In this document: in pieces, positions 1 to 27,559 of the stretch | How the letters are laid out: every line of letters begins with the position of its first letter | Numbering within the stretch: the stretch's first letter is position 1 | DNA from: a virus | DNA: 27,559 nt | Virus record (IMG/VR): IMGVR_UViG_3300037961_000952 | Location: 1-27,559 of that record | Strand: one strand, 5' to 3' | Position numbers and translations under genes: made by a program | Notes under the pieces: model-generated | Seen by the model: the letters and a program-made list of their open reading frames with translations, nothing else | What the model was told of the DNA's origin: nothing | Databases searched by the model: none

Positions 1-741
1 CTATTACTTAGTAATATAACAGGTGATGCTAGTGTACCTTATTCTGTAGCAAGTAATGCAGGAACATCTACATTAACATCAGCTAGTACAAATCTTACAG
101 ATCAGCAGTTATTATCTATAGTTTATAAGTCAGCTTATGGAACTAATGCAGATTTAGCTTTTAAAGATTGTTTTTGTACTGCTCTTAGCTTTAATGGTGA
201 TGCAAATACAGAAGGTGGTAGAGTAAAATTCTCAGCTACATTTAAGACAGGTAGCCTTGCAGAAGATTTAACCGATGCAACTACAACAATAGATACAGCA
301 ATTACTGCTAATAACTACTACATGAGTGCATGGGATGCTAATGATAGAATAATCGCAGGTCATTCTGATGTAATCTTATCATCATTCAGCTTAAACATTA
401 CAAATGATGTTGAGTTTGTAGGACTTACTTCAACAGGTTTTGAGAGTGCTACTAGAGCAGGTGAGATAAGTGCAACAGCAGATTTTACTTGTGTATATGA
501 TGCTAATACAGCACCAATGTTTGAAAACTTCAATGATCAAGTAACAGGAGCATCAGAAGGTTCTACATTAATGGGAGCAGATGCTACACCTTCAGATGGT
601 GCATTTGAGTTCAAATTTGCTAGTTCAGTATTAACAGATGTTAGTTTTAGTGATGCAGGTTTGATGATGTTAAACGCATCTGTAAAAGCTGTTGGTGCAG
701 GTATTGGTTCATCTACAGCACTATTTGAAGTAAGCTGTTAA
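1..741 (+). CDS. Probable major tail tube protein (5' end outside the window)
   Basis: The reading frame is open from base 1 and ends at TAA 739-741, giving 246 residues with no start codon inside the window that explains the upstream coding sequence. The protein is rich in Ser, Thr, Ala and Gly, has few charged stretches and looks all-beta. No sequence signature proves tail tube. The call rests on composition, size and position, directly before a frameshifted tail chaperone and the tape measure, the conserved order in siphoviruses. The tube protein polymerises into the tail shaft through which DNA passes. The C-terminal part (ALFEVSC end) is complete. It could alternatively be another beta-rich tail protein. 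Confidence 0.6.
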   Translation, partial: LLLSNITGDASVPYSVASNAGTSTLTSASTNLTDQQLLSIVYKSAYGTNADLAFKDCFCTALSFNGDANTEGGRVKFSATFKTGSLAEDLTDATTTIDTAITANNYYMSAWDANDRIIAGHSDVILSSFSLNITNDVEFVGLTSTGFESATRAGEISATADFTCVYDANTAPMFENFNDQVTGASEGSTLMGADATPSDGAFEFKFASSVLTDVSFSDAGLMMLNASVKAVGAGIGSSTALFEVSC

Positions 742-18003: not shown

Positions 18004-21000
18004 ATGCCAGAAAGTATAAATAGTAAATTAAAAGAACAATATGATCACGATGATAGTGGGGGATCGTTAGACACTAATCTAGGGGATTTTTTAGATTCTG
18101 AAGGTGCATCTGGTACTTCCAATAACTCTAAATGGAGGAATTGGGCATCTGGTACAGGCACTAGCTTAAATACAAGACTATTCCACAAGCATGGTGGTTC
18201 TGGCTCATTTATGACCAGATGGAAGAATTGGATAGCATTTAGTTCAACTCATTCCTTCAATTTCGATGGTAATGATAATTATATAGAAGCACAGGATACA
18301 TTAGAAAGTGTTTTTCAAGCATCGTATTCTATTTCACTTTGGTTAAAAGCAGATGATGGACAACCATCTTCAGACCAATCTTTATTTGGAGTTAGAACAA
18401 GTGCTAATAGTTCAATAAACAATGTAGTAAGAGGTATGATAAAAACTAACGGAAAATTGTTTTTTACATACCAAGATGGTTTAAATGATGCTCCTGCAGA
18501 AACATATAGTGCTGTTTTTTCAGATGGTGCAACAGATTGGACTCATGTCGCTATAGTAGTTAGTGAAAGTGCAGACCAAATATATATATATGTAAATGGC
18601 TCTGTTCAAACTTTACATCCAACATATAATGGTGATACATCTGCTTTAACATTTAGTAATTTTGGAACAAGTAATAATTTTCCTATAGGTGGTAGAAATA
18701 ACTTGGGAACAGTTGGGCAGTTTTTTAGTGGTAAAATTGACGAAGTTGCAATCTGGGATACTGCTTTAAGTGCCTCAGATGTTACTTCTATATACAACAA
18801 TGGTAAGGTAATTGATCTTAGTAAATCAGCATCATACGGAACGGACAGGACAGGTAATTTAAAACTCTGGTTACGCTGTGGAGACAAAGCAGAACCAGAA
18901 TCTACTACTGCAATCGCAAGACAGGACTTCTATACAGACTTTGATGGTACGGATGATTATGTGAGCATAGCAGATGATAATTCTTTAGACCAAACTTCAG
19001 CTTTAACGATTGTTTGTTGGGCAAAAAATGCTAATTCTGGTTTAAGTGCAACTGAATTACTTGTAGCTAAATATACATCTACAGGTTCTGATAATCGCTC
19101 TTATGCTTTTGAAATAAACTCAAGCGAAAAATTAGTTTTTACTGCATCGGCTGATGGTACAAGTTCATTAGGTACACAAACATCAGATAGTGCTTTATCT
19201 ACTATAAATGAATGGCATCATTATGCTGTTACATTTAGTTCTGGTACTTGCAAACTTTTTCAAGATGGAGTAGAAATAGCATCTACAGCATCAAATATGC
19301 CATCATCTATATATGCAGGAGCATCAACACTACTTATAGGTGCAATTAATACAGGAACATTAAATTGGGAAGGTGCAATATCAAATGTAAGTGTATATCA
19401 AACAGCACTCGATGCTCAAACCATTTCACAGATGGCAAAGAGCAGATTCACCCCCATGAGAGACAATCGCTTTTCTGTAGTTTCTCTGGATGGAACAAAC
19501 GACTTCATTGATTGTGGTAATGATTCAAGTCTACAATTTAGTGGTAGTTTTTCTATTGGATGTTGGTTTAGAACAACTGATGCAACTGCAACTAATGAAA
19601 TATTAATATCCAAATCAGATGATGGTGTAAGTGCAGGTTGGTTAATTAGATTAAATAGTAGTAGAAAATTAGATTTTACCTATACTAATTCAGCAAGTGG
19701 TGGGGTGGGTGCTACAATAAGTGATACAGGAAGTGTTGTAAATGATGGGCAATGGTATCATGTAATGTTTGTACATGAGTCGGGAGTAGGTAATAGAGCT
19801 TATAAAAATGGTGTATTAGTTGGAAGTAATTCTACAGGAACAGACCTCGGAAGTCATACACCAAACTTCCACATAGGAAATCAAGATTATACTACTGCAA
19901 GAGCATTAGCCTGTGATGTGAGTTCAGCATCAGCATATAATGTAGCTAAGTCTACAGAAGAAGTTTACGCTATCTATCAGCAAGGTATCACTTATGATGA
20001 ATCTTCACTTAATGGTATAGTTGGCTATTGGAGAATGGGAGATGGAACAGGTGATACTTTTAAATACATATTAGACCAAAGTTCTAATAGTAATAATGGT
20101 GCTATGACAAATATGACTCGGAGCGATATATCTGAGCAAATGGTAGCAGGATATGATTTAGGTGCATTTACTAATAGTACAGAATCAACATTAGAAAATG
20201 TATATAATTCTGATATGAGTTTATCTACAACACCAAGTTTTAACGGAGTTGATTTTTCATATTATAGTAACACTTCATCAGCACAAGAAACAAGCACCAT
20301 AGGTGGCAGAACAAATGTATGGAAAATTGTTACAGCCTCTGATGATACTTATTCTGCTGTGAGATTTATTCCTAATCCAAATCAAGATATTTCTAATAAG
20401 CAGTTTAATATAAGTGTAAAAGTATATATACCATCAACTGATGGAGTGCCAAGTGTAAGGCTTAGATATGTTTATGACTCTGGTGGTAATAATACAATAA
20501 TCGCAACAACTACAACAACAGATGAATGGGTAACCTTATCAACAAGTAGTCCTGTAACGATTGCAGATTATAATGGTTGGTCTTTAAATATTGAATTTGT
20601 ATCAAGTGGTGTAGCAAATAAAATATGCTATATTGATGATTTCTCTATTACTTCAGTCCTACAATCAGAAGTATCAGACTCTTACCCTGCCATCATAGAT
20701 GTAAATGAGCCTGTGTTGGGAGTTGACCAAGTTACTAACGGAACTTTTGATGCAGATTCTAATTGGACAAAAGGGACAGGATGGAGTATAGGTAGTGGAG
20801 TAGCAAGTTGTGATGGTACGCAGACAGGTAATACAGGCTTAATACAACAAGGTACTATTTCTGGAGCAAATTTAGATTTTGAAGTAGGAAAAACTTATAA
20901 AATTACTTTTGATGTAACAACCACAGCAGGAGCAATAACTTATATAGAAATCGGTGGTACAACAGAACATACTGATGTTCCTGCATCAGATAGTACAGCT

Positions 21001-21933
21001 ACGAGATACATACAAGCCTCAAGCACTAATGATAGATTAACTATAGCAGGAAATTCTTCATTTGTAGGTACAGTTGATAATGTAGTAGTTAAAGAAGTAC
21101 ATGGCAATGTCGGCACAATGACAAATCAAGACTCAAGTGATTTAGTCTATTCCTCAGTTCTACCTGACCAATCCTTTCTCACAGGAGTAAACTCTGCGTA
21201 TAACTTTATAGACTTGGATGGTACAAATGAATATATAGATTGTGGTGATATTAACGAAATAGATGGTGCAAGTGCTTTATCTATATCAGCTTGGATAAAA
21301 TGCGATGTAACCTCTGGTGCTCATGTTATAGTAAGTAAATACTCATCATCAAGCGTAAGAACAGAACTTATTATAAGCAGTAATGTATTATATATGGCTT
21401 TTGGAGCTACAAATGGTAATTTTTCATTTACAAGTACAGATTGGAATCATGTAGCTATGGTCTTTGATGGCTCTGGTACAGGAAACACAGGAAGATTAAA
21501 AATATATTTAAATGGAGAAAATCAAACATTAAGCTATACTGGTACTATTGGTACTACCACACCAGACACAGGTACTAATGTTTTAAAAATAGGTAATAGG
21601 ACATCTCATCATTTTGATGGAGCAATGGGGCAAGTATCTATTTTTAACAAATCACTTTCAGCAACAGAAGTATCTGCAATTTACACAGCAGGTCGCCATT
21701 CTAATCTACTTGATAGCTACTCAGATAATTTAGTTGGTTATTGGGCAATGAGTGCTTTAGATGCTAAAACAGGATTAAGTGATGTGGGTGATGGTACTAT
21801 CTACGATAGAAGTGGAAACTCAAATCATGGTACTGCTACCAATACAGAATCAGCAGATTTAAAAAGTTCACCAAACGCAGAAAGCAATGGCTATGCAAAA
21901 GGTGATACTAATCGTTCAACAACAACACCTTAG
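18004..21933 (+). CDS. Large LamG-repeat adhesin (capsid or tail fibre candidate)
   Basis: 1309 residues. Four LamG/concanavalin-like domains begin near residues 80, 308, 491 and 1067, each marked by a DG(N/T)xxYI-type opening (FDGNDNYIEA, FDGTDDYVSI, LDGTNDFIDCG, LDGTNEYIDCG) and later W-H-H/V strands. Between the third and fourth lie two beta-sandwich modules resembling carbohydrate-binding domains (about 729-895 and 909-1038, VTNGTFDADSNWTKGTGWS). The first 75 residues are different (TRLFHKHGGSGSFMTRWKNW) and may anchor it to the virion. It follows the capsid gene rather than the tail, so a head-surface adhesin is possible. LamG domains bind glycans or proteins. The ribosome site is weak. 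Confidence 0.85.
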   Translation: MPESINSKLKEQYDHDDSGGSLDTNLGDFLDSEGASGTSNNSKWRNWASGTGTSLNTRLFHKHGGSGSFMTRWKNWIAFSSTHSFNFDGNDNYIEAQDTLESVFQASYSISLWLKADDGQPSSDQSLFGVRTSANSSINNVVRGMIKTNGKLFFTYQDGLNDAPAETYSAVFSDGATDWTHVAIVVSESADQIYIYVNGSVQTLHPTYNGDTSALTFSNFGTSNNFPIGGRNNLGTVGQFFSGKIDEVAIWDTALSASDVTSIYNNGKVIDLSKSASYGTDRTGNLKLWLRCGDKAEPESTTAIARQDFYTDFDGTDDYVSIADDNSLDQTSALTIVCWAKNANSGLSATELLVAKYTSTGSDNRSYAFEINSSEKLVFTASADGTSSLGTQTSDSALSTINEWHHYAVTFSSGTCKLFQDGVEIASTASNMPSSIYAGASTLLIGAINTGTLNWEGAISNVSVYQTALDAQTISQMAKSRFTPMRDNRFSVVSLDGTNDFIDCGNDSSLQFSGSFSIGCWFRTTDATATNEILISKSDDGVSAGWLIRLNSSRKLDFTYTNSASGGVGATISDTGSVVNDGQWYHVMFVHESGVGNRAYKNGVLVGSNSTGTDLGSHTPNFHIGNQDYTTARALACDVSSASAYNVAKSTEEVYAIYQQGITYDESSLNGIVGYWRMGDGTGDTFKYILDQSSNSNNGAMTNMTRSDISEQMVAGYDLGAFTNSTESTLENVYNSDMSLSTTPSFNGVDFSYYSNTSSAQETSTIGGRTNVWKIVTASDDTYSAVRFIPNPNQDISNKQFNISVKVYIPSTDGVPSVRLRYVYDSGGNNTIIATTTTTDEWVTLSTSSPVTIADYNGWSLNIEFVSSGVANKICYIDDFSITSVLQSEVSDSYPAIIDVNEPVLGVDQVTNGTFDADSNWTKGTGWSIGSGVASCDGTQTGNTGLIQQGTISGANLDFEVGKTYKITFDVTTTAGAITYIEIGGTTEHTDVPASDSTATRYIQASSTNDRLTIAGNSSFVGTVDNVVVKEVHGNVGTMTNQDSSDLVYSSVLPDQSFLTGVNSAYNFIDLDGTNEYIDCGDINEIDGASALSISAWIKCDVTSGAHVIVSKYSSSSVRTELIISSNVLYMAFGATNGNFSFTSTDWNHVAMVFDGSGTGNTGRLKIYLNGENQTLSYTGTIGTTTPDTGTNVLKIGNRTSHHFDGAMGQVSIFNKSLSATEVSAIYTAGRHSNLLDSYSDNLVGYWAMSALDAKTGLSDVGDGTIYDRSGNSNHGTATNTESADLKSSPNAESNGYAKGDTNRSTTTP

Positions 21934-21942
21934 AGGAAAATT

Positions 21943-22371
21943 ATGAGTGAAGAAGTAACAAACAGATGGTCAGATGACTATAGTGGTAGATGGTCGCACA
22001 GGGCATATATGATCGTGCCTGTAGCTGATATTGATTCAGCAGATGCACCTACAGACTCAAATACAGTAGCACAGATAAAAGCATGGATGGATAGCTATGG
22101 CTATGAATATACCTCAGATATGAGCAAATCAGAGCTATTAGGAGCTATCCCTGTATCTAATGCCTTTATAGCTAATGCAATACAATCAAGCAAAGAAACG
22201 CTTAGAAAGAACAACGGAGATGAGGGTGATAGTTCTAAAGCATTATTAAAGTTTCCTTGTGATAATGATGCAGACAATGATCCTGCCATGTTTAGCTCTT
22301 ATGATAAATACTCTCACGCACAGATAATGGATATTTTATCTGGTGATGAGTGGAGTTCATCTATTGAGTAA
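21943..22371 (+). CDS. Unknown protein with a HeH/LEM-like helix pair
   Basis: 142 acidic residues with AGAGGAAAA before ATG 21943. The segment IKAWMDSYGYEYTSDMSKSE, then LLGAI (about 45-69) matches the helix-extension-helix plan of HeH/LEM/SAP-type folds. The N-terminus has WSDDYSGRWSHRAYMIVPVA. The C-terminus has a Asp/Asn-rich stretch (FPCDNDADNDPAMFSSYDKY). It follows the adhesin by nine bases and may be an accessory to it, for example a chaperone or a fibre partner. Function is not known. Confidence 0.6.
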   Translation: MSEEVTNRWSDDYSGRWSHRAYMIVPVADIDSADAPTDSNTVAQIKAWMDSYGYEYTSDMSKSELLGAIPVSNAFIANAIQSSKETLRKNNGDEGDSSKALLKFPCDNDADNDPAMFSSYDKYSHAQIMDILSGDEWSSSIE

Positions 22372-22372
22372 T

Positions 22373-22891
22373 ATGTGCAGTTGTATTTATAATTGTATTT
22401 GCAGTAAAAAGGGTAATAGTCTTGCTGAGTTCGCAGTTACTATGGCTATCATGGCTACTTTGGCAACTACCTCTGCTCCTGCTTTTAGTCGTATCGGTGA
22501 GGGAGCTAAAGCTAAACAAACTAAGGCTAATCTGGAGAAAATAGTTAAAGCATCCCAGATGTGGTACAATCAACAGGTAGAAATAAATGGCATGGGAAAA
22601 TTCCCTTCACAGCCTCATAGAACAGTAAGCATAGGTGAGGTCAATGATTACAATAATAATCGCAGAATAGAGGTAAATGAGGTGTTAGAAGGTACTTATG
22701 TGCCTGTATTTAGTGATACTAGCTTTCTGCATTTATTTGATAATGACACAATCAGATCACCTTACCAAGATGGTAGATATTTATATGCTATTGTAGGGGG
22801 TTCTGGAACAGGGAACAATATAGTAAGTCCTATCTTTGTTGTAGTGGATCAAGAAAACCCAGAAGATTTTTATAAGTATTACAAGCCATGA
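22373..22891 (+). CDS. Type IV pilin / pseudopilin-like protein
   Basis: 172 residues from ATG 22373, two bases after the previous stop; GTG 22343 and ATG 22346 are in frame upstream. The leader is MCSCIYNCICSKKG, then NSLAEFAVTMAIMATLATTS. This is a class III signal: Gly before the cut, Glu at mature position 5 and an unbroken hydrophobic helix. A long helix follows (GAKAKQTKANLEKIVKASQM) and a beta-rich C-terminal part (YLYAIVGGSGTGNNIVSPIF), as in GspG-type pseudopilins. The host prepilin peptidase could process it. Four Cys in the leader are unusual. Roles may include interference with host pili or a virion/membrane function. Confidence 0.75.
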   Translation: MCSCIYNCICSKKGNSLAEFAVTMAIMATLATTSAPAFSRIGEGAKAKQTKANLEKIVKASQMWYNQQVEINGMGKFPSQPHRTVSIGEVNDYNNNRRIEVNEVLEGTYVPVFSDTSFLHLFDNDTIRSPYQDGRYLYAIVGGSGTGNNIVSPIFVVVDQENPEDFYKYYKP

Positions 22892-23007
22892 GTTCAGACG
22901 ATATACACGATTACGTAAAGATAATAATGTTTTTAGCATTTGTATTTGGAATAATGATTTTTGCATCATGTGATGGAGGTTGGTCTATTGCAGGTTATGA
23001 GGTATGA
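22888..23007 (+). CDS. Small membrane or lipoprotein-like peptide
   Basis: 39 residues, starting at ATGA overlapping the pilin-like stop. After an acidic opening (MSSDDIHDYVK) comes a hydrophobic stretch (IIMFLAFVFGIMIFASC), then CDGGWSIAGYEV. FASC looks like a loose lipobox, so lipid attachment is possible, but the N-terminus is not positively charged, so a plain single-span protein is equally likely. The stop overlaps the next start. The tight coupling on both sides supports it. Confidence 0.5.
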   Translation: MSSDDIHDYVKIIMFLAFVFGIMIFASCDGGWSIAGYEV

Positions 23008-23330
23008 GTGAGGAAAAGACCTACAGATCAGTTGGGATGGCAAAAATTGATGATAACTTTCGTATTAGTCTTAACATTAAGTGGCTTACTCAGATTATCG
23101 TGGGAGTTGGGTTTATTATTATGGGCTACCTACGAATTGAAAACAGAATTAAATCACTTGAGCAATCAATGGAATCAGCTAATACTGAAATATCAAATCT
23201 AATAGATAAGCACATTGAAGAAGAAGAAGTTAAAATAGCAGAGATGCAAGAGCAAATAGAATGGTATCAGAAAGAATTAAATCTATCACTAAATCCCTTA
23301 TCATGGGGAAAGAAAAAAAGAAGAAAGTAG
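23004..23330 (+). CDS. Membrane protein with coiled coil (paralog A)
   Basis: 108 residues, ATG 23004 overlapping the previous stop. One span lies at about 27-43 (WLTQIIVGVGFIIMGYL), followed by a coiled coil (about 45-95, IENRIKSLEQSMESANTEIS) and a strongly basic end (GKKKRRK). The pattern VGF-x-RIxxLE is shared with the gene at 23715, suggesting tandem duplication. It resembles inner-membrane spanin or 'phage membrane coiled-coil' proteins in shape only. The protein probably has its helix on one face of the membrane. Confidence 0.65.
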   Translation: MSEEKTYRSVGMAKIDDNFRISLNIKWLTQIIVGVGFIIMGYLRIENRIKSLEQSMESANTEISNLIDKHIEEEEVKIAEMQEQIEWYQKELNLSLNPLSWGKKKRRK

Positions 23331-25034: not shown

Positions 25035-25132
25035 TGCCAAGAGGAAAAGGAACATACGGAAGTAAAAGGGGTAGACCACCAAAGAAAAAGAAATCAATGT
25101 TTAAATTTGGTAAAAAAAGGAAAAAGAAGTAA
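25034..25132 (+). CDS. Tiny basic protein with AT-hook-like core
   Basis: 32 residues: MPRGKGTYGSKRGRPPKKKK, then SMFKFGKKRKKK. KRGRPPKK is the core of an AT-hook (GRP flanked by basic residues), which binds the minor groove of AT-rich DNA. It starts and ends with TAATG overlaps, between the DUF5872-like and endolysin genes, so it is very likely translated. With about half of its residues Lys or Arg, it may help condense the AT-rich genome. Confidence 0.65.
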   Translation: MPRGKGTYGSKRGRPPKKKKSMFKFGKKRKKK

Positions 25133-25512
25133 TGCCAAGATTTGGTAAAAGATCAAAGCAAAGAATGGTAGGTATTGATCCCAGACTGAGAGAGGTCTTA
25201 GATAGGCTTATTGATATTATGGATGTAACTATCATTGAAGGCATAAGATCACCAGAGAGGCAAGAAGAACTGCTTAAAAAGGGTGCTACAAAGACTAAAT
25301 ACAGTAAGCATCTTGAAGGTAAAGCTGTAGACCTAGCACCATATCCAATAGATTGGGATGATAGGGAAAGATTTCATTACATGGGTGGTATGATTAGAGG
25401 AATAGCAAAGCAGTTAGGTTATTATGTTAGATGGGGTGGTGATTGGGATTCTGATGGTGAAATCAAGGATAATAACTTCGATGACTTAGTACATATAGAG
25501 ATTATAGGATAA
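25132..25512 (+). CDS. M15-type peptidase endolysin
   Basis: 126 residues. The zinc-peptidase pattern is complete: H60 in SKHLEGKAVD, D67 in AVDLAPY and H121 in LVHIE, with IEGIRSPERQEELLKKGATK upstream. This is the VanY/L-alanyl-D-glutamate peptidase type (M15), which cleaves the peptide cross-links of peptidoglycan. There is no signal peptide or separate wall-binding domain, so it needs a holin for release. The start is ATG 25132, overlapping the previous stop. Confidence 0.88.
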   Translation: MPRFGKRSKQRMVGIDPRLREVLDRLIDIMDVTIIEGIRSPERQEELLKKGATKTKYSKHLEGKAVDLAPYPIDWDDRERFHYMGGMIRGIAKQLGYYVRWGGDWDSDGEIKDNNFDDLVHIEIIG

Positions 25513-26648: not shown

Positions 26649-27559
26649 ATGAGTACATACGAGGCATCATATTGTTCACAATCAGATGTAAAAGCTATTT
26701 TACCAGAGCTAGGTAAGTATAACCAACGATCTATACTAGCTCCTAATTGGGTAGCATCTGGAACATCACATCTATTTTATCTGCATTCAGCAGGTGGTAG
26801 TGGATATAGTGTATTATTTAAAGATGGTAAGGATTTAGGTGCTGAACATGGTTCTGAGCCTTCATCAGATAATCAATGGAGATATGTAGAGGCTGATGGC
26901 AGATTAGAATATTATTTAGGTGGTGGAAGTGCTAACACACTTAATGGTAGTGTATGGGAGTTTGGTGAAGATCAAGATGCTAACCTTACTAAAAACATAG
27001 CCAGAGCCTCAGATTTTGTTAGAAGTATGTCTGGTGGTATGCCTATCTATCCTAGAAAGGGTGTAGGTAACGCATCTGCAACAGGTAATGACTACCCAGA
27101 ACTCATTGTAAGATGTACAGCGTATGTATGTGCTAGTTTTATCACAGAAAGCTATGATGAGGAACTATCTAATAGATTGATGGCTAAAGTAACAAACGAA
27201 GATAATACAGGCTTTTTAGATAGGTTAAGAGGTGGTGAGATAACCATTAGCCAACAAGAATCCCTACAAAAGAATAAGGGTATAGTAAGAAGAGTATCTG
27301 TAAACGCATCATCTACATCAGATATTGTGGATGTTCGTGGCAGACCTACAGCTAGATGGGATTTGATTAAAATTAAGATTACAACAGCAGGAACACTTGA
27401 AAGAGGTACAGATTCCACAGTTAGATATTCAACTTTCGGTAGTAGCTCAGATGGCTTACAGGTAGATGAAATGATTGAGAATGAGATAGTAACAGGTGGA
27501 TGGGATCAAGTTGGTAGGGGGATGTTCTGTAGGTTCTCACCTGGTGTACTTACCTTAAA
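26649..27559 (+). CDS. Head-tail adaptor-like protein (3' end outside the window)
   Basis: At least 303 residues, open from ATG 26649 to the window end. The N-terminus (YCSQSDVKAILPELGKYNQR) and the helical part at about 118-200 (LTKNIARASDFVRSMSGGMP, then LIVRCTAYVCASFITESYDE) resemble head-tail connector proteins. A beta-rich insertion lies between (about 40-115, LFYLHSAGGSGYSVLFKDGK), and a further beta-rich C-terminal part follows. This arrangement suggests an adaptor carrying an extra surface domain. The gene order, just upstream of the tail tube if the ends are close on the genome, agrees. The exact family is uncertain. Confidence 0.55.
   Translation, partial: MSTYEASYCSQSDVKAILPELGKYNQRSILAPNWVASGTSHLFYLHSAGGSGYSVLFKDGKDLGAEHGSEPSSDNQWRYVEADGRLEYYLGGGSANTLNGSVWEFGEDQDANLTKNIARASDFVRSMSGGMPIYPRKGVGNASATGNDYPELIVRCTAYVCASFITESYDEELSNRLMAKVTNEDNTGFLDRLRGGEITISQQESLQKNKGIVRRVSVNASSTSDIVDVRGRPTARWDLIKIKITTAGTLERGTDSTVRYSTFGSSSDGLQVDEMIENEIVTGGWDQVGRGMFCRFSPGVLTL

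Follow-up and report, generated by a model that had tools for sequence, protein, structure and literature searches.

A type IV pilin-like gene in small and larger marine phages and its relatives in filament operons of Marinimicrobia

Background

Among proteins of solved structure, the major pseudopilin of type II secretion (GspG/EpsG) has the fold closest to that of the phage protein described here. Both have a leader, a Glu at mature position 5 (Glu+5) and a Pro at mature position 22 (Pro+22), but they are only 12-13% identical, and the phage family has SLAEF where GspG/EpsG has FTLIEL. It is established in the pilin field that Glu+5 is required for filament assembly.

Type IV pilin-like genes also occur in other tailed phages, such as the 'pilin' genes of Synechococcus phage ACG-2014f (Kyanoviridae) and a prepilin-type gene of Pseudomonas phage F10. 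We reached both with classical-pilin queries, through short N-terminal matches in ACG-2014f and a weak match (E 0.03) in F10, and their neighbours differ from those reported below, being photosynthesis genes in ACG-2014f and tail genes in F10. A classical-pilin query matched 74 phage records at E<=0.1 and E. coli GspG matched 80, mostly over short parts. Since annotated phage pilins and such matches exist, the presence of a pilin in a phage is in itself no novelty.

A different class of phage products acts on the host type IV pilus and excludes other phages by disabling it. PfsE acts on PilC, while Tip and Aqs1 act on PilB, and they are described in connection with superinfection exclusion (PMC8764522); such precedents are also covered in the review PMC11436027. 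These products resemble the protein studied here in being aimed at the pilus, but they bind PilC or PilB, and the word pilin does not occur in the main text of PMC8764522. Among the papers listed in searches of the open-licence literature outside bioRxiv, no title or abstract beginning described the present pilin family, Marinimicrobia phage pilins or subunit substitution.

Here we analyse a pilin-like gene in IMG/VR virus record IMGVR_UViG_3300037961_000952, of which positions 1 to 27,559 (27,559 nucleotides, hereafter the window) were studied. Both ends of the window (1-741 and 26649-27557) cut through open frames, which suggests that the record is a phage genome that is incomplete or was cut open from a circular form.

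The pilin gene of the window

A preliminary description, made from the sequence of the window, had placed a pilin or pseudopilin-like protein at 22373-22891, and the frame there indeed codes for 172 aa. The gene, its parts and its neighbours are as follows.

18004..21933, plus strand: LamG-rich protein with four Laminin_G_3 stretches (PF13385, E 3.1e-77), putatively receptor-binding from its domain and place
21943..22371, plus strand: cluster-5 gene, the commonest immediate upstream neighbour (in 50 of the 71 loci that have one on the same strand)
22373..22891, plus strand: pilin/pseudopilin-like gene, 172 aa, ATG at 22373, stop at 22889-22891
22373..22414, plus strand: Cys-rich class III leader MCSCIYNCICSKKG, with the cut predicted to follow Gly14
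22415..22489, plus strand: hydrophobic helix NSLAEFAVTMAIMATLATTSAPAFS at the mature N-terminus, containing Glu+5 and Pro+22, from the signature and hhalign
22499..22588, plus strand: amphipathic second half of the long pilin helix (AlphaFold helix 43-72, pLDDT 78-91 in blocks of ten)
22646..22681, plus strand: EF-hand-like loop DYNNNRRIEVNE, pattern present in 85/85 loci, putative metal binding
22694..22888, plus strand: C-terminal globular part with three short strands in the predicted structure
22888..23007, plus strand: small putative lipoprotein of 39 aa (cluster 7), putatively o-spanin-like, start overlapping the pilin stop (ATGA)
23004..23330, plus strand: one-TM coiled-coil protein (cluster 0), putatively i-spanin-like, best PHROG match the unannotated phrog_20984 (E 1.8e-9)
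25132..25512, plus strand: M15-type peptidase, putative endolysin (Peptidase_M15_4, E 1.9e-6, 28.8 bits vs a cut-off of 25)

The cluster-0 protein also matches an Rz-like spanin PHROG (E 4.5e-4). The class III signal read in the preliminary description is present: Gly14 precedes the predicted cut, the mature protein begins with NSLAEF and so has Glu at +5, and an uncharged hydrophobic helix containing Pro+22 is followed by a long second helix. We combined these traits into one signature rule, which takes a Gly in the first 30 residues, a Glu five residues later and, after that, a run of 16 hydrophobic residues free of charged residues, Asn, Gln and His. The window and 82 phage loci together gave 1613 predicted proteins in 341 clusters. 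Among these the rule selected the pilin cluster alone (81 of its 81 members, all 81 with Pro+22), and a single one of 32,260 shuffled proteins satisfied it.

The start codon of the window gene is uncertain. In-frame alternatives are a TTG at 22364, also seen in the near-identical locus L002, and a GTG at 22343. The leader varies among loci and can extend into the upstream gene. Many relatives have short leaders before the Gly, often of 5-8 residues (for example MNGLGNR or MINNK), and the residue preceding the Gly is Lys in 43, Arg in 38 and Ser in 4 of the 85 loci. The Cys-rich leader remarked on earlier is real, but it is no general family trait, since CxCxxxCxC occurs in 11/85 loci. The same Cys spacing appears in two sequence versions, in the window (22373-22411) and in L002-L006, L035-L037, L039 and L046.

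Conservation and neighbourhood in small phages

One scan of IMG/VR confirmed 177 relatives, 80 of them listed. The 85 loci considered here comprise 80 from a pattern scan that did not use the signature motif, L082, L083, L167 and L169, added through queries L045, L082 and A2, and the window itself; they are not dereplicated and contain 66 distinct full-length proteins. Two matches of one pattern scan were rejected as unrelated long repetitive proteins.

GNSLAEF[AT], Glu+5 and Pro+22 can be read in 85/85 loci, so the Gly/Glu(+5) pair that had been noticed in the window is kept throughout the homologues. The mature length is 159 aa in 83/85 loci, and the other two (156 and 153) end at a contig edge. 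Over the 66 distinct proteins (2027/2145 pairs used), the median dN/dS was 0.105 and the maximum 0.336, values that are rough because synonymous sites are near saturation. The fixed mature length and the low dN/dS indicate a translated gene under selection, and purifying selection with a median of about 0.1 bears out the frame that had been proposed as coding. The loop pattern D.[DN].N..[IVL][ED]..[ED] is likewise kept in all 85 loci. An EF-hand calcium site has a DxDxDG-type loop with an acidic position 12; the spacing is retained in 85/85 loci, but in the rows aligned Arg stands for the usual Gly at position 6.

The genes upstream of the pilin vary. The same-strand gene just upstream (71 loci) belongs to cluster 5 in 50 cases, to cluster 31 in 9 and to seven others in 12, and the largest gene within six upstream (45 loci) belongs to clusters 6, 27, 33, 82, 206 and 313 in 26, 12, 3, 2, 1 and 1 cases, respectively. 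Downstream, the next same-strand gene (80 loci) is cluster 7 in 43 and cluster 0 in 31, together 74/80, and cluster 0 lies within four genes in 76/78 loci with room. An endolysin-type gene was found within eleven genes downstream in 60/66 loci with enough sequence, belonging to the M15 cluster in 53 and to a GH108-like cluster, named by eye, in 7. Upstream families are thus exchanged while downstream ones are kept, which indicates that the pilin stays with the lysis side. Because the large upstream genes change and the pilin remains, the pilin does not go with any single receptor type.

A second subfamily in larger phages

A second phage subfamily, of about 200 aa and 38-45% identical to the window protein (18 rows aligned), was recovered by a scan that matched 86 stretches on contigs of up to 132 kb. 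The T4-type capsid protein gp23 was found in 5/15 of the records tested (106-132 kb) and was not found in the other ten, one of 120 kb and nine shorter.

The subfamily-2 genes of these larger phages are accompanied by classical pilins. Among 35 subfamily-2 genes, 30 have a stop codon and four of these have too little room after it (<500 bases), leaving 26 loci, some of them near-copies. FTLIEL-type pilins follow the subfamily-2 gene in 26/26 of them, one in 14 loci, two in 9 and three in 3. Three classical pilins of L244 exceed the cut-off of the Pfam N_methyl model (PF07963), and 12/15 records hold a match over that cut-off. We obtained 39 matches between these classical pilins and those of the bacterial loci described below, with 35.5-76.3% identity to the best match; the two at 76% have their match in L274, a locus titled Neomarinimicrobiota.

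Fold and family membership

The structure prediction depended on the alignment supplied. AlphaFold with near-identical rows only gave a pLDDT of 46, and addition of subfamily 2 raised the mean to 74.6, with blocks of ten at 73-91 from residue 41 on and the membrane helix below 50. A Foldseek search of this model against the PDB gave no significant match, the best (E 0.83) being a type II pseudopilus model, and nothing in a viral structure library was significant (best E 0.19). When 295 Foldseek-ranked chains were compared by VIA-align, pilins and pseudopilins occupied the first 16 of the best 19 rows, led by V. vulnificus GspG with Z 6.4 (2.9 A over 80 residues), followed by V. cholerae EpsG with Z 6.3. 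The comparison with GspG/PilA proposed as a check in the preliminary description speaks with moderate strength for a pilin fold: pseudopilins are the nearest folds, at Z 6.4, but the Foldseek match is not significant (E 0.83). Since a Z below 8 can reflect a common arrangement, the fold match supports a pilin without proving it.

Curated sequence models gave low scores. The window protein scores 12.6 bits with N_methyl, against a cut-off of 21.2, and nine of ten small-phage records match at E<=0.001, with a maximum of 20.6 bits vs 21.2. All six operon-type bacterial homologues scanned lack a Pfam match (at E<=0.001 or E<=0.01), which indicates that N_methyl misses the SLAEF branch. The GspG model (TIGR01710, cut-off 88.85 bits) does not match the window protein at E<=10. 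In NCBIfam scans of 45 single members, PilA_Myxo appeared in 30 (best E 0.011) and GspG in five (best E 0.057), and unrelated families reached comparable or better E-values, CydC in 16 members (best 0.0021) and glyoxylate reductase (best E 0.009). A profile search of PDB sequences reached a pilin only at E 0.54, with unrelated proteins alongside. There is thus a SLAEF-type branch of pilins that falls below the cut-offs of the curated Pfam and NCBIfam models or escapes them.

In profile-profile comparison with hhalign, the profile of the small-phage subfamily (A1) matched eleven classical pilins at 90.7% (E 1.2e-6), and a profile of both subfamilies matched them at 94.7% (E 6.2e-8). As judged from sequence comparison, the window protein is almost certainly a filament-subunit homologue of bacterial pilins, and the pilin or pseudopilin identity first proposed for it is supported by the signature in 85/85 loci and by homology to pilins of bacterial operons.

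Relatives in bacterial filament operons

A genome scan with subfamily-1 patterns gave no relative among 21 matched stretches, and a scan with subfamily-2 patterns gave 19 loci with relatives. By their titles, ten of these are Marinimicrobia/Neomarinimicrobiota, six are only 'bacterium', and one each is Balneolaceae, Euryarchaeota and Alphaproteobacteria. Some of the Marinimicrobia/Neomarinimicrobiota titles carry names that we take to be of the single-cell-genome kind. The 19 loci come from 17 genomes, which were analysed further (L283 belongs to the same genome as L269 by contig name); 12 of the 17 are Marinimicrobia, eight by title and G031, G035, G036 and G038 by a phylum draw with the titled G040.

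Profile A1, built from the window subfamily only, matched 17/17 genomes (E 8e-25 to 2.5e-19), a count that is not a frequency because the genomes were chosen for subfamily-2 relatives. The match was at E 1e-22 or better in 16 and at 2.5e-19 in the Alphaproteobacteria bin, with a separate C-terminal match in most. Within the phylum of G038, a profile of both subfamilies (A4) matched 29/199 genomes at E<=1e-5 and down to 2e-61; seven were at E<=1e-36, five of them already known from the genome scan. In the phylum of the Alphaproteobacteria bin, A4 matched 2/200, the bin itself and one marginal genome (9e-7).

The clearest context is an operon on a 220-kb contig of G038 (locus L287). In order, it has a response regulator (PF00072, E 1.8e-13) and a prepilin peptidase (PF01478, E 1.3e-17), followed by a PilB-like ATPase (T2SSE E 9e-128, MshEN 6e-13), a sigma-54 activator and a PilC-like protein (T2SSF 4e-57). 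Between PilC and the first operon pilin stands a gene whose product has an Mrr-type restriction endonuclease domain (L287:8462-9472, PF04471, E 6.7e-14), and the homologue of the window pilin then occurs twice. Eight FTLIEL-like or minor pilins, recognised by reading, come next; two were scanned and both exceed the N_methyl cut-off. After these come a large protein with a LamG domain at the GspK position (L287:17273-19762, PF13385, E 9.4e-18), an AAA/PilM protein, PilO and a secretin (E 1e-40). PilD (Peptidase_A24) and the pilin homologue are thus in the same operon with four genes between them. By reading, L268, L271 and L284 share this gene order as far as the homologue, the nuclease gene being absent from two of the three, and the prepilin peptidase of L268 was confirmed (PF01478, E 5.3e-15). 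A secretin was found in 13/17 genomes. Two or three tandem SLAEF/SLMEF-type pilins occur in the Marinimicrobia-type genomes of L287 (9655-11314), L274, L275 and L282.

The first pilin or pilins after PilC in these operons (e.g. L287:9655-10326 in G038) have a mature N-terminus, GNSLAEFAVTTAMMATLATTAAP, nearly identical to that of the window subfamily, and the profile matches roughly 75 residues at the N-terminal end and 56 at the C-terminal end. The operon pilins are longer in the middle, whereas the window subfamily is shorter (159 aa mature) and forms its own branch (SH-aLRT 100) with the loop DxNxNRRIExxE, in some members DxDxNRRIDxxE.

The Alphaproteobacteria locus, L267 (DQLC01000014.1), is of another kind. 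By reading, it holds sugar-nucleotide genes, a nuclease-like gene and a truncated pilin of the large-phage type; one protein is 65% identical to a large-phage one, and there are no pilus genes in the stretch read. It is possibly a phage contig binned with a cell.

Host and origin

Marinimicrobia are abundant in the ocean, and we know of no cultured phages that infect them. The host of the phages described here is probably Ca. Marinimicrobia (SAR406) or close relatives, and filament operons of Marinimicrobia are the probable origin of the phage pilin. For the small phages, we infer this host from the pilin gene alone. Their capsid protein was found in 0/245 genomes of the Marinimicrobia phylum, a count made without a positive control.

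The nearest phage-record matches of the window capsid protein are four pelagiphage capsids (27-34% identity) and that of a freshwater phage (32%). Pelagibacter was considered as a host and set aside, the likeness to pelagiphage capsids notwithstanding. Neither the window protein nor its large-phage relative in L244 has a tblastn match at E<=0.01 in 50,697 phage records, and no pilin was found among the annotations inspected of HTVC111P, DSL-LC06, HTVC026P and HTVC035P (31,001 of 36,066 bases); Pelagibacter is therefore an unlikely host.

In a quick unrooted tree, the large phages fall in two places. AU tests reject neither a single large-phage clade (p 0.54) nor a single clade of all phages (p 0.64), and the trees of these runs were slightly better when the large phages, or all phages, were held together. 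As a single phage clade is not rejected, we do not claim repeated capture.

Possible role of the phage pilin

The nearest cellular relatives found belong to filament operons of uncultured marine bacteria, mostly Marinimicrobia, which suggests that these viruses alter or block a host filament. On balance, we favour the reading that the phage has captured a subunit gene from a type IV filament of its host, one of the MSHA/type II secretion-like kind, and that the subunit changes that filament late in infection. The small-phage pilin is presumably expressed late, and the neighbouring lysis genes point to a benefit when infection is ending. At that stage the precursor would enter the inner membrane, and host PilD would cut it after the Gly. 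The window has no prepilin peptidase (PF01478), and 25 related records have none over the cut-off, the sole sub-threshold match scoring 16.2 bits vs 26.5 and having stop codons inside. The earlier suggestion that the peptidase would have to be the host's agrees with this and with the PilD encoded beside the homologue in the Marinimicrobia phylum, and maturation by host PilD is very probable. The mature subunit, with Glu+5 kept, would then likely join the filament driven by host PilB/PilC, an entry already considered in the preliminary description with the blocking of other phages as an example. Selection on Glu+5 argues for an assembling or capping subunit and against a mere peptidase plug. 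A filament containing the phage subunit would be altered in what it shows or does, and it could become unusable for other phages, or no longer trap them and the phage's own progeny; exclusion or anti-trapping of this kind is the likeliest benefit, although this is the most doubtful step of the proposal.

The main rival, because large phages carry pilin sets, is that the phage subunit maintains the function of the host filament or pseudopilus (in attachment, secretion, or DNA or nutrient uptake) during the shut-off of host transcription and in this way feeds phage production. The order of those small sets, with the SLAEF type first as in the host operon, fits such a function, as do Glu+5 and Pro+22 in 85/85 loci. 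In the small phages, however, there is one recognised pilin only, and its gene is flanked by probable receptor-binding genes on one side and lysis genes on the other, a position that would be expected to give late expression; we regard this explanation as unlikely. Less probable again is a part in the virion or in adsorption, with a tail-associated pilin-fold protein that is produced in the membrane and then taken into the particle. In the structural half of the genome, the gene does adjoin probable receptor-binding genes, and phage F10 has its prepilin-type gene between those for the major tail protein and the tape measure, but the conserved class III leader and hydrophobic helix target the inner membrane, and the pilin stays the same where the large upstream genes change.

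A lysis function, in which a membrane-anchored helper of the spanin/endolysin cassette merely retains a pilin frame, would agree with the small lipoprotein-like and one-TM coiled-coil genes directly after the pilin and with the endolysin-type gene in 60/66 loci. We consider it improbable, since in large phages the gene adjoins classical pilins and selection retains residues important in filament assembly. That a one-TM coiled-coil phage protein looks like a pilin by chance is hardly credible: the weak Foldseek result and the sub-threshold Pfam scores would be expected of such a protein, but only 1/32,260 shuffled proteins fits the signature rule, the homology to operon-borne bacterial pilins reaches E ~1e-24, and hhalign gives 90.7% with classical pilins.

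Extending the favoured reading, the capture of a host subunit, to both kinds of phage, we tentatively propose that small siphovirus-like and T4-like marine phages, probably on Marinimicrobia, may take over the host type IV filament with their own subunits, one in the small phages and up to four in the larger ones, so that the filament would be partly virus-made. If true, this would be host takeover or superinfection exclusion by subunit substitution. The analysis links many marine viral contigs from uncultured sources (at least 177 relatives) to a probable host phylum. It also describes a bacterial filament subunit that two kinds of phage have retained as a stable gene, and this opens to test the idea that phages use subunits of their own to re-dress or block host pili, beyond inhibition of the motor.

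Other genes near phage and host pilins

In a single comparison, the LamG protein of the window was 32% identical to the protein at the GspK position of the host operon over 138 aa (E 4e-9), and phage receptor-binding proteins and the host filament may therefore share a domain type. Some large phages encode a protein (L255:4757-5431, also in L236 and L243) whose first ~68 residues resemble the N-terminus of host PilB (37%, E 8e-6, single comparison), followed by a TM segment and a coiled coil. A sequence pattern detected this protein in 3/44 loci scanned, and it is a possible second handle on the filament motor in phages with pilin sets. A TM protein shared between the small phages and this PilB-N-like protein of the large ones was considered, and no similarity was found. 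Near the pilin set of the same large phage, L255:6009-6659 codes for a POPDC/cyclic-nucleotide-binding membrane protein (PF00027 E 2.1e-16, PF04831 E 2.2e-14).
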